From positions 1-49,573 of the forward strand of contig JAJRWU010000202.1 of assembly GCA_024276655.1 (NCBI GenBank): a stretch of 49,573 nt of DNA. Reading direction: 5' to 3'. Of this stretch, positions 41,437-45,171 are shown piece by piece (position 1 is the first letter of the stretch; each line of letters starts with the position of its first letter). The notes under the pieces are model-generated. The model had not been told where the DNA came from. It saw only the letters and a list, made by a program, of their open reading frames with translations, and did no database searches. The translations under genes were made by a program, and so were the position numbers. This DNA comes from Planctomycetota bacterium. GTDB taxonomy: Bacteria > Planctomycetota > Planctomycetia > Pirellulales > Pirellulaceae.

Positions 41437-42192
41437 GTGATTGAGCGTAGTCATATATTGGTGGTCGAAGACGAACTGCATCTCGCGACCGGCATCAAAT
41501 TCAACCTGGAGCGTGAGTCCTATCACGTTACGGTGGTCAGCGACGGCCCGGCCGCGCTGCGGCTGATGGACGAAAACCCCAACGATATCAGCCTAATTCT
41601 GCTTGATCTGATGCTGCCGGGCATGAGCGGTTACGAGGTTTGCGAAAAGATTCGCGACACCAACCACACGACGCCCATCCTGATTCTCAGCGCCCGAACC
41701 CTGGCCGAAGACCGGGCCCGTGGTTTCGACGTCGGCGCCGACCAATACATGATGAAGCCCTTCGATCTTGACGAGTTGCTCAGCCGTGTGAAAAATCTGC
41801 TTCAGTTGTCGTTACGGCGGGGGAGTTCGGTCAATCCGCCTTCCACCGAGATCATCGCCTATGTGGGCAAATCCAAGGTCGATTTCACCACCTACGAGGC
41901 GCATGTCCGGGGCGCGGTGGTGCGTTTGACGCCGCTCCTGGTGAAACTCTTGCAATTTTTTGTCGCGAATGAAGGCCGGGTTATTCCCCGGGAGGAACTG
42001 CTGGAGAACGTTTGGAACTTGCCGGGGCATGTCAACACGCGCGCGCCGGACCAATTCATGCGGCGTCTGCGAAAAATTTTCGAGGACGACCCCGCCCAGC
42101 CGCGCCATTTCCTCACCATTCGCGACACCGGTTATCGTTTTATCGCCCAGCCGGAGGATTCGGTTCAACAAGAAACTCCGGCCAACGATTGA
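41437..42192 (+). CDS. OmpR/PhoB-family response regulator
   Basis: 251 residues from a GTG (AGGA upstream). The receiver domain has the acidic pair in VVEDE, the phosphoacceptor Asp in LILLDLMLPGMSG, the Thr/Ser position in LILSAR and the Lys in MMKPFDLDELL. The winged-helix domain follows (VRLTPLLVKLLQFFVANEGRVIPREELLENVW, then RRLRKIFEDDP and FLTIRDTGYRFIA). It is a DNA-binding regulator. It precedes the kinase-chaperone fusion by 87 bases on the same strand, so cotranscription is possible; no histidine kinase is adjacent. Confidence 0.9.
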   Translation: MIERSHILVVEDELHLATGIKFNLERESYHVTVVSDGPAALRLMDENPNDISLILLDLMLPGMSGYEVCEKIRDTNHTTPILILSARTLAEDRARGFDVGADQYMMKPFDLDELLSRVKNLLQLSLRRGSSVNPPSTEIIAYVGKSKVDFTTYEAHVRGAVVRLTPLLVKLLQFFVANEGRVIPREELLENVWNLPGHVNTRAPDQFMRRLRKIFEDDPAQPRHFLTIRDTGYRFIAQPEDSVQQETPAND

Positions 42193-42279
42193 GCATCGCC
42201 CTCATGCCGCCACTATAATTCAAGCTCGTTGTTTTTCGGCGCCGTCTGGGGAGGTTGCATCATATCCGCCACGATCGAA

Positions 42280-45171
42280 ATGATTGTCGCCTTCTTGTCT
42301 CGAAGCGAGCAAGCATCGAGCGCCCAGGCCAAGTCGCTGGTGAACGCTATTGCCACCTCGCTCCAGGAAGAACTTTCTGAACCCAAGGCGGGCGGCGCTT
42401 CTCAAGCCCGGCTGTTGGAAGGTATCGTCGGCCAGTTGGTGGATCGTGAATTCCTGACCGACTACCAGGCTTCGCAGCTCATACGGAACCGGGGCGGGAA
42501 GTTGCTTCTGGGGAATTATGTGATCCTCGATCACATTGGCTCCGGCGGCATGGGCTCGGTATTTCGGGCTCGTCATTTGGTGATGAAACGCATTGTGGCG
42601 CTCAAAACGTTGAACGCCAAGGAGATGGGTTCCAAAAGTGCAGTCCGACGATTTCACCGGGAAATGGAGGCGGCGGCGAAACTGGAGCACCCCAATATCG
42701 TGGCCGCGTACGATGCCGATGAATTTCAAGGCGTCCATTTTCTGGTGATGAAATTCATAGACGGCCACGACCTTGCCCGCCACTTGAGCCGGCATGGCCC
42801 GCTGCCGGCGGCGGAGGCGGTTGGCTATATTCTGCAGGCGGCGCGTGGCTTGGATTACGCCCACGAACAAGGCGTGATCCACCGCGATGTCAAACCTTCG
42901 AATCTGCTGCTCGACAAACAAGGCTCGATCAAAATTCTTGATCTGGGGCTGGCGAGTATTCACGCCGCCGCCAAAAGTAACACCGCCGCCGGCAGTAGAA
43001 ACACCGCCGCCGGCGGCGCCTCGGATGTGTCGAATCTCACCAAACGCGAAAATATTCTCGGCACGCTCGATTATATGTCGCCGGAGCAGGCCGAAGACAC
43101 CAGCAGCGCCGACCAACGTTCCGACATCTACGCCCTCGGTTGCACGCTCTATTTTCTGTTGACGGAAAATCCGCCTTATGCCGCCAACACACTCGTGGCC
43201 AAACTCTTGGCGCATCGGGAGGCGGAAATTCCCTCCCTGCGAGAGGCCGCCTCGGACACGCCCCAGGAGTTAGACGACATCTTCCGCCGCATGGTCGCGA
43301 AGCAACCTGCTGATCGGTTTCAAACGATGGCCGACGTCAGCGCTGCCCTGGAAAGCTTACAGTTCGAAGTCGACGCGCAACCGCAAACCATCGGCGGGGC
43401 GGCAACCGAAGGCGCGCCAACACGCCCGCGCGAGGCGGTCCGAGACGAACGCACCCGCCTCCTGGCGCCCGCCGCCGAGGTGTCGCGATTGCGGGCCTGC
43501 CAAGCCGTGGGCATCGATTTAGGCACCACTTATTCCTCGCTGGCGTATATTGATCCCCAAGGAACGCCGCACGTAGCGACCGACTCTTCAGGACAAACGC
43601 TCACGCCGAGCGTGTTGTTCTTTGGAGACGAACAAATTCTCACCGGAGAGTTGGCTTTGCAGTTCGCCCGCCACGACGCCCAAAGAACCGTGCAATTCGT
43701 GAAGGCCCGCATGGGCGACGCCTGGGAATACGAAGTCGATGGCCACCGCCATTCGGCGGAAAGCCTTTCGGCAATCATCCTGCGTCATCTGCTCGGCGAA
43801 GCGGAGCCGCAAATCGGCCCTATTTCCACCGCCGTTATCACGGTTCCCGCCTATTTCACCGAAAAACGCCGCCAAGCCACCGAACAAGCCGGCCGCATCG
43901 CGGGGCTAAAAGTGCTGGGCGTTTTGAACGAACCCTTGGCCGCCACCCTGGCCCAGGGACTACATTCCTCCGAGGACCAGCGGAATGTGGTCGTCTACGA
44001 TTTGGGCGGCGGCACGTTCGACGTGACCGTGGTGCGTGTTGGCGCTGGTGAAATCAGGGAATTGGCCACGCACGGCAACCGCACTCTGGGCGGCCGCGAT
44101 TGGGATCAACGTTTGCTCGATTGGGCGGCCGACGATTTCCAACGCACGCACAACGCCGACCTCCGCCACGACCCCCAAGCCGTGCAAGACCTGCGCATCG
44201 ATTGCGAACAGGCGAAACGTCGGCTGTCGCAATCTGAGACGGCGCAAATCACGATGTTCGCGCAGGGGAAAAGGCATGTCGCGACGATCACGCGCGCGCA
44301 GTTTGAAGACGCCACGGCCGATCTCATTCAAACGACAAAACTGACTGTCCGCATGGCGCTCGACGACGCCTCGCTCACGTGGGCCGATATCGACCGCGTG
44401 CTGCTCGTTGGCGGCGCCACGTACATGCCCGCCGTGCGGGAAATGCTCGCAGCCGAGGCCGGCTTCCCTGCCGATTGTGGCGTGAACCCGATCGAGGCGG
44501 TGGCCAAGGGCGCCGCTATTTACGCACAAATGCTGGAGTTGGAAAGCGCCGCCGTGATTTCACCCTTGGCGGAAAACCGCCCCGACCCACCGCCAACGGC
44601 GGTGGGCGAGGTTGACGAGTCTGCTCCAGACTCCTCACCGCCGGAGGACCATTTACCAGCCAGCGGCGCGTACACGCTGGCGCCCGCCGAGGAGTCGGAA
44701 CGTCGGCAAAAAACGGCGGCCGAGCATCCTCCGCGGCTACGGTTCGTTACCGCGCATGGCGTGGGTGTGAAAGTGCTCAGCGGCGGCCAATGGAAGAACT
44801 CCGTGCTGATACCCTCGAATTCCCTCACGCCGGTGGAGGCTCGCAAACGATTTGTCACGGCCTCGAAAACGCAAACCGGCGTGCGCATTACTTTTGAAGT
44901 CACGCAAGGAGACACCGACGACGCCGACAGCGCCGAAGTGTTGGGCGTCGGACGTCTCGACGACTTCGGCGGCCTCGAACCGGCCGGACGATCGATCGAT
45001 GTCATCATGCGGTTCGACGAACAAGGCCGCCTGACCGTCAGCGCGCAGTATGAAAACCAAGAAGCGGAATGCGTCTTGGCGATTGAAATCAGCAACGGCC
45101 TCCAGGAACAAGACATCGCCCGACACAACGAGCACCTCCACACGGCCGGGCTGTTCGATAAACGTGAGTAG
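42280..45171 (+). CDS. Ser/Thr protein kinase fused to a DnaK/Hsp70-like chaperone
   Basis: 963 residues from the ATG at 42280. A planctomycete-type helical head ends in LTDYQASQLIRNRGGKLLLGNYVI. The kinase has GSGGMGSV (87-94), VALK (Lys109), HRDVKPSN (201-208), DLG in place of DFG (221-223) and SPE (267-269). A 35-residue linker leads to a Hsp70 nucleotide-binding domain: GIDLGTTYSS (411-420), VPAYF, YDLGGGTFDVT and LLVGGAT. A substrate-binding beta-domain follows (SVLIPSNSLTP.., DEQGRLTVSAQ). The alpha-lid is missing. GGGGAGG lies 25 bases before this ATG, and an in-frame ATC at 42259 or TTG at 42229 could be starts. Role inferred: kinase-gated substrate binding. Confidence 0.9.
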   Translation: MIVAFLSRSEQASSAQAKSLVNAIATSLQEELSEPKAGGASQARLLEGIVGQLVDREFLTDYQASQLIRNRGGKLLLGNYVILDHIGSGGMGSVFRARHLVMKRIVALKTLNAKEMGSKSAVRRFHREMEAAAKLEHPNIVAAYDADEFQGVHFLVMKFIDGHDLARHLSRHGPLPAAEAVGYILQAARGLDYAHEQGVIHRDVKPSNLLLDKQGSIKILDLGLASIHAAAKSNTAAGSRNTAAGGASDVSNLTKRENILGTLDYMSPEQAEDTSSADQRSDIYALGCTLYFLLTENPPYAANTLVAKLLAHREAEIPSLREAASDTPQELDDIFRRMVAKQPADRFQTMADVSAALESLQFEVDAQPQTIGGAATEGAPTRPREAVRDERTRLLAPAAEVSRLRACQAVGIDLGTTYSSLAYIDPQGTPHVATDSSGQTLTPSVLFFGDEQILTGELALQFARHDAQRTVQFVKARMGDAWEYEVDGHRHSAESLSAIILRHLLGEAEPQIGPISTAVITVPAYFTEKRRQATEQAGRIAGLKVLGVLNEPLAATLAQGLHSSEDQRNVVVYDLGGGTFDVTVVRVGAGEIRELATHGNRTLGGRDWDQRLLDWAADDFQRTHNADLRHDPQAVQDLRIDCEQAKRRLSQSETAQITMFAQGKRHVATITRAQFEDATADLIQTTKLTVRMALDDASLTWADIDRVLLVGGATYMPAVREMLAAEAGFPADCGVNPIEAVAKGAAIYAQMLELESAAVISPLAENRPDPPPTAVGEVDESAPDSSPPEDHLPASGAYTLAPAEESERRQKTAAEHPPRLRFVTAHGVGVKVLSGGQWKNSVLIPSNSLTPVEARKRFVTASKTQTGVRITFEVTQGDTDDADSAEVLGVGRLDDFGGLEPAGRSIDVIMRFDEQGRLTVSAQYENQEAECVLAIEISNGLQEQDIARHNEHLHTAGLFDKRE

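Follow-up and report, generated by a model that had tools for sequence, protein, structure and literature searches.

The window, a stretch of 49,573 nucleotides from a planctomycete of the family Pirellulaceae (contig JAJRWU010000202.1), carries on its forward strand a gene in which a Ser/Thr protein kinase is joined to an Hsp70 in a single chain. The open reading frame (ORF) is uninterrupted from 42229 to 45171 and amounts to 980 amino acids when counted from the TTG at 42229, the start assumed in a preliminary description of this DNA. That description was right about the single open frame, but the ATG at 42280 is the better start, since the sister species (G001, same genus) retains this ATG, while the preceding stretch, in our reading of the alignment, differs by an indel and has a TAG near the position of the TTG. 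The kinase–Hsp70 fusion gene (42280–45171, + strand) thus encodes 963 amino acids, a gene model based on the ORF, Pfam matches, relatives and ratios of nonsynonymous to synonymous substitution rates (dN/dS).

Both halves of the protein were identified with Pfam. Pkinase (PF00069) matched residues 80–349 with 175.3 bits (cut-off 31.7, E 2.1e-51), and HSP70 (PF00012) matched residues 409–753 and a second stretch with 355.8 bits (cut-off 20.6, E 4.6e-106). A profile search of the genome placed this second stretch at 44761–45168, profile positions 394–524, corresponding to the beta substrate-binding domain (SBDβ). The chain starts with a helical region of low confidence in the AlphaFold2 model (residues 1–76, 42280–42507, this and all following segments on the + strand), which matches other planctomycete kinases from about residue 46 on, kinase-only matches beginning at query positions 46–52. 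The Ser/Thr kinase domain (residues 77–360, 42508–43359), delimited by Pfam, alignments and PDB sequence matches, aligned with a GSGGMGSV loop, K109, E128, the HRD aspartate D203, N208 and D221 of a DLG motif. Its best PDB matches are bacterial Ser/Thr kinase chains (best 9e-50), including PknB (4e-45) and StkP (6e-46). A linker of low model confidence (residues 361–405, 43360–43494; AlphaFold2, dN/dS) leads to the Hsp70 nucleotide-binding domain (NBD; residues 406–755, 43495–44544), which is defined by Pfam, alignments, the model and a fold match, and whose ATPase residues D413, K475, E551, D574, T579 and D581 are intact. The last five of these correspond to K70, E171, D194, T199 and D201 in DnaK numbering, which was anchored through motifs in a Melainabacteria DnaK (L132). 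A mostly disordered, Pro-rich and acidic NBD–SBD linker follows (residues 756–820, 44545–44739; AlphaFold2, alignment, length, dN/dS), then the SBDβ (residues 821–941, 44740–45102; second PF00012 stretch, model, fold match) and a lone C-terminal helix (residues 943–955, 45106–45144; AlphaFold2, tail length).

The AlphaFold2 model was built on 45 sequences and had a mean predicted local distance difference test (pLDDT) score of 76.7. Taken in blocks of ten residues, the score was 83–97 in the NBD and 54–96 in the SBDβ, where most blocks were above 70, and it fell below 50 at residues 760–782 and 784–800 of the NBD–SBD linker. The C-lobe of the kinase was poorly modelled (pLDDT 41–56 at residues 301–360) since no more than four rows of the alignment were kinases, and the fold searches are informative for the Hsp70 half only, not for the kinase. 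The Hsp70 half matched a truncated DnaK (7kzu) with a VIA-align Z score of 51.3 and a root-mean-square deviation of 2.2 over 485 residues. After the end of the SBDβ there are 22 residues, compared to 130–145 in three DnaKs, and the model has the single short helix in place of an α-helical lid. The complete kinase, complete NBD and SBDβ described previously are thus borne out by the Pfam matches and by the catalytic and ATPase residues, and the absence of the lid by the short tail.

Two further departures from DnaK had been overlooked in the preliminary description. The allosteric signal of DnaK is transmitted by the interdomain linker, which docks on the NBD (PMC6843406); D35 of the J-domain bonds to R167 and Q378 (PMC8215388), and D393 of the linker is an interaction partner of R167 (PMC7289447). 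In the window protein, the DVLLLDV motif of this linker is replaced by the 65-residue disordered Pro/acidic linker between NBD and SBDβ, while the DnaK encoded in the same genome has the sequence KDVLLLDV. Furthermore, R167 is replaced by Gly, Q378 by Tyr and D393 by Phe.

The fusion is common in the host family. A first search of 40 genomes, the window's own included, found 15 with at least one uninterrupted kinase–NBD chain, and one (G021) with a broken one. Among 392 genomes across the phylum, with two candidates scored per genome, the spanning matches among those listed were in the window's own genome (G000), G391 and G312. Of 119 genomes sampled from the host family, 58 or more have a kinase–Hsp70 fusion, and the fusions fall into two classes. 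Class A, to which the window protein belongs, was present in at least 18 of the 119 genomes, and class B in at least 40, where one gene is divided between reading frames and a few are truncated at the ends of contigs. One more class A fusion (G028) comes from another family of the same order. All 21 class A proteins have kept the ATPase residues, so that both active sites are intact, whereas 35 of 39 aligned class B proteins have lost both K70 and E171, and the other four have Lys at T199. The kinase catalytic residues are present in all 60 aligned fusions (21 class A, 39 class B), except for gaps at K109 in one class A row and at K109 and E128 in one class B row. No genome had both classes among the matches listed (18 and 40 of 119, chance 3e-4; by genus, 15 and 18 of 68, 0.005); these figures are based on hand counts and uncorrected for kinship, and we draw no conclusion from them. 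In two genomes (L033 in G021; L277 in G504) the kinase–Hsp70 genes are broken across frames.

The changes in the coupling residues extend to all Hsp70s of the window's type that were compared, a set of 53 proteins comprising the 21 class A fusions and 32 stand-alone proteins. R167, Q378 and D393 are absent from all 53, and position 378 is never Gln. Positions 167/393 are D/N in 47 proteins, G/F in five and D/Q in one; 48 of the 53 thus have Asp at position 167, the R167D state that was simulated for DnaK in PMC7289447. The distance from the GAA motif of the NBD to position 393 is 20 residues in three DnaKs, 21–35 in 48 of the 53, and 79–117 in the remaining five (three stand-alone relatives, the window protein and the orthologue of the latter). 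At the ATPase site, K70, E171, D194, T199 and D201 were kept in 52 of 52 proteins, and are intact in L198 in a separate alignment. In the peptide pocket, the V436 position is Ile, Val or Leu in all 53 proteins, P419 is kept in 53 and F426 in 49. The term “lidless” rests on tails of at most 78 residues after the SBDβ in 47 of the 53 proteins, including all 21 fusions; the other six have tails of 159–320 residues. One protein labelled “solo” in the tree (L202) is a DnaK and is not part of the set.

As a control, we read the same positions in DnaK-like proteins, which were obtained from 79 of 80 loci. Position 167 was Arg in 73 of 76 readable proteins (two had Asp and one Ser), and the combination R/Q/D was present in all 66 proteins in which the three positions could be read. 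Positions 378 and 393 were read with a pattern that expects a DnaK-like linker and therefore leans towards the canonical residues, while the R167 column is independent of this pattern. Two of the exceptions (L094, L110) are stand-alone planctomycete proteins with Asp at position 167, the same kind of linker as in the 53 (NVSSHDLG and NVNSHSLG), long tails and no kinase. The loss of R167, Q378 and D393 suggests that these Hsp70s may work independently of J-proteins.

Between the window and the sister species, dN/dS was 0.14 for the kinase, 0.16 for the NBD and 0.13 for the SBDβ, compared to 0.64 for the NBD–SBD linker. Kinase, NBD and SBDβ are thus all under purifying selection. The fusion in the sister species is 95% identical, in the same frame and flanked by the same neighbours, and its difference in length corresponds to three whole codons within the NBD–SBD linker. 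The region at 43350–43500 between the two halves had been singled out as the place where a stop or frameshift might be found; there is none, and the sister species keeps the frame here as well.

In a tree of 58 NBD sequences, three stand-alone Hsp70s form the sister group of the pair made up of the window fusion and its orthologue, with 100/100 support. One of the three is encoded in the window's own genome (L042, G000:C320), a paralogue that went unnoticed previously and that is 54% identical over residues 400–959. Eight class B loci were not included in the tree, nor were the gene that is broken in G021 (L033, L211), L228 and the duplicate L230; in addition, L046, L220 and L223–L227 were missed by the ORF selection, and L220 and L223–L228 were re-examined afterwards. 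A single origin of class A, with all 21 NBDs held together, was rejected on this tree (p-value of the approximately unbiased test, p-AU, 1e-9), for a group that was named after the first tree had been viewed. In one fusion, L037, the Hsp70 half has as its sister a stand-alone copy encoded in the same genome (100/100), and the kinase groups with an unrelated kinase (100/100, both on long branches); L037 likely represents a second kinase lineage. For the Hsp70 halves, several separate joinings are the simplest reading, and the fusion may have recurred.

What might such a protein do? The reading that we favor, tentatively and with somewhat less than even confidence, is that it is a soluble kinase of the PknB type in which a lidless, probably J-protein-independent Hsp70 serves as a substrate-recruiting or sensing module. 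The SBDβ would bind exposed hydrophobic peptide segments, and binding would presumably be fast and weak because there is no lid to hold the peptide. Tethered through flexible linkers, the kinase would be able to act on a captured client or on the chain to which it belongs, and the extent or the target of phosphorylation would depend on whether the Hsp70 half is occupied by peptide or ATP. We take phosphorylation to be the conserved output across the family, with the Hsp70 half serving the kinase, because class B has kept the kinase residues while its Hsp70 ATPase residues have decayed. The earlier proposal that phosphorylation could be coupled to peptide binding would fit this arrangement.

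Several observations weigh against this reading. No conserved partner gene points to a function, and the neighbours are common to some close relatives only. The pocket-rim residues M404 and A429 vary relative to DnaK, so that peptide binding is not assured, and the residue changes fall short of a demonstration of J-protein independence. Accessory domains are common on planctomycete kinases, 105 having been counted in one survey (PMC11032199, 2024), and the fusion alone therefore says little. Against repeated joining, a single origin of 18 class A kinases was not rejected on the kinase tree, which is poorly resolved (p-AU 0.18; the group tested excluded L037, L045, L198 and class B), and the fusion kinases are more clustered than shuffled labels (5 changes versus 18.1). 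Few joinings followed by losses of the kinase are therefore possible.

Alternatively, the kinase might serve the chaperone, phosphorylating the Hsp70 half in cis, for instance on the Ser/Thr-bearing linkers, and thereby switching ATPase activity or peptide binding, so that chaperone activity would be the output. All 21 class A proteins retain the complete ATPase site, the two enzymes of the window protein are under similar constraint, and the linkers, predicted to be disordered, could be within reach of the kinase. However, this arrangement fits class B badly, where the kinase residues persist while K70 and E171 are mostly gone, as expected if the Hsp70 serves the kinase; the linker switch, moreover, is a guess. 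We consider this alternative unlikely, though possible for class A. The Hsp70 half could also be a scaffold or oligomerization module without peptide clients, acquired through a general shuffling of planctomycete kinases. The many accessory domains of planctomycete kinases (PMC11032199), the missing lid and canonical linker and the variable pocket rim would agree with such a role, but the NBD active site kept in class A and the low dN/dS of both NBD and SBDβ point to a working ATPase and beta domain, making a mere scaffold more doubtful still. That an assembly or sequencing error joined two genes can practically be dismissed: although the genome has many kinase genes (31 Pkinase matches), making a chance neighbour conceivable, a second genome has the same fusion with the same neighbours, its length differs by whole codons in the linker, and 60 in-frame fusions could be aligned.

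If the Hsp70 half indeed feeds the kinase, as we favor, the exposure of protein segments would be coupled directly to Ser/Thr phosphorylation in bacteria, and neither a separate chaperone nor a J-protein or stress sigma factor would be involved. A more speculative version, which we regard as improbable, is that a lidless, J-protein-independent Hsp70 became, perhaps repeatedly, an intracellular sensor of peptides or misfolding wired to a Ser/Thr kinase, in effect a one-protein cytosolic receptor for proteostasis. The ATP cycle would act as a timer in class A, while class B would be a pseudo-ATPase peptide receptor. The two classes, with and without an ATPase site, constitute a natural experiment on whether signalling needs ATP cycling, and the commonness of the fusion in the host family and its two forms make the role of the chaperone half for the kinase testable. 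The family also poses the question of how an Hsp70 works without the R167/D393 switch that is targeted by J-domain proteins in DnaK.

The pairing itself is not new. A “Kinase + HSP70” protein was listed in Pirellula sp. (gi|32474490; Krupa and Srinivasan 2005, PMC1262709), which bears out the remark in the preliminary description that there are counterparts in some planctomycetes. Like the window protein, it is from a planctomycete and has an HSP70-family domain after the kinase on a single chain; the passages concerned in that report contain no analysis of lid, linker, ATPase site or distribution. The 2024 survey suggests repeated origins of kinase architectures, and the word “hsp70” occurs 0 times in its main text, figures and supplements being outside this count (PMC11032199). 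Among the best-ranked openly licensed papers in our literature searches, there was neither an experimental study of a kinase–Hsp70 fusion nor one that describes the two classes or notes that R167/D393 is replaced in Hsp70s of this kind. What is new here is the frequency in the family (at least 58 of 119 genomes) and the division into two classes; the kinase and HSP70 pairing has been known since 2005. Compared to DnaK, the window protein shares an NBD with ATPase residues and the SBDβ fold, but has no lid, no DVLLLDV linker and none of R167, Q378 and D393, and has a kinase in front. The stand-alone Hsp70 from the same genome has the long NBD–SBD linker and the G/F pair at positions 167/393 in common with it, but lacks the kinase. 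With PknB and StkP, finally, the window protein shares the kinase domain, as seen in the matches to PDB chains, but it has an Hsp70 in place of a PASTA domain, for which the Pfam scan of the window protein gave no match.

The DLG motif, previously noted as standing in place of DFG, is present, but it is not peculiar to this kinase. In the window's own genome there are 31 Pkinase matches at 30 loci, and 21 kinases could be read. DFG was the commonest motif (eight kinases, five by pattern and three by eye), followed by DLG in four, including the window protein, DMG in three, and six others (DYG, DIG and DWG once each; DFN or DFS in three). Of 29 fusions, 17 had DMG, 10 DLG and two DFG. The 25 background kinases had DMG (13), DLG (4), DQG (4), DFG (3) or DNG (1); these are kinases within the loci at hand, mostly from other families, and not a random sample. 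We thus rejected DLG as the mark of an odd or dead kinase: the motif is neither rare nor a defect, and the Asp of DxG is present.

Upstream of the fusion and in the same direction lies a gene for an OmpR/PhoB-type response regulator of 251 amino acids (41437–42192, + strand; ORF, NCBIfam, sister species). It matched PhoB-like NCBIfam families, although the best 25 of 100 matches were all below their curated cut-offs. The 87-base distance given in the preliminary description holds when measured from the end of the regulator at 42192 to the ATG at 42280. The regulator is 98% identical (dN/dS 0.10) and adjacent to the fusion in the sister species, so that the pair is conserved across two genomes of the genus. 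BLAST clustering among 30 loci gave no counterpart beside other fusions (loci added later were not checked), and a functional operon with the regulator was rejected. No recurrent partner gene was found among the 20 neighbours scanned with Pfam, a subset of all neighbours. Two stand-alone Hsp70s have MoeA-type genes nearby, two others adjoin GGDEF regulators, and a GYF_2 match was seen at two neighbour loci, one of them below its cut-off.

The stand-alone Hsp70s of this type occur in various contexts. In the window's own genome (L042, 8781–15231), the Hsp70 gene is one of several in a row on the same strand, among them a MotA/TolQ/ExbB-type gene, two that had no Pfam match above cut-off and one for a GYF_2/squalene-hopene-cyclase-like protein; the same gene clusters adjoin the Hsp70 in the sister species (L043). 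In deep-branching planctomycetes (L224–L227), the C-termini of the Hsp70s carry long repeats with a high content of Gly, Tyr, Ala, Glu, Asp and Gln. L228, which has a long C-terminal extension, adjoins an oppositely oriented kinase-like gene (E 4.5e-17) in which the usual HRD motif is not evident, an arrangement that resembles a split version of the kinase–Hsp70 pair. In L127, a protein from the Planctomycetales, an Hsp70-like NBD and beta domain are joined to what appears, from a reading of the tail, to be a von Willebrand A domain, and the 816-residue Hsp70 of L047 (7438–9888) has a long tail that ends, by our reading, near a probable transmembrane helix.

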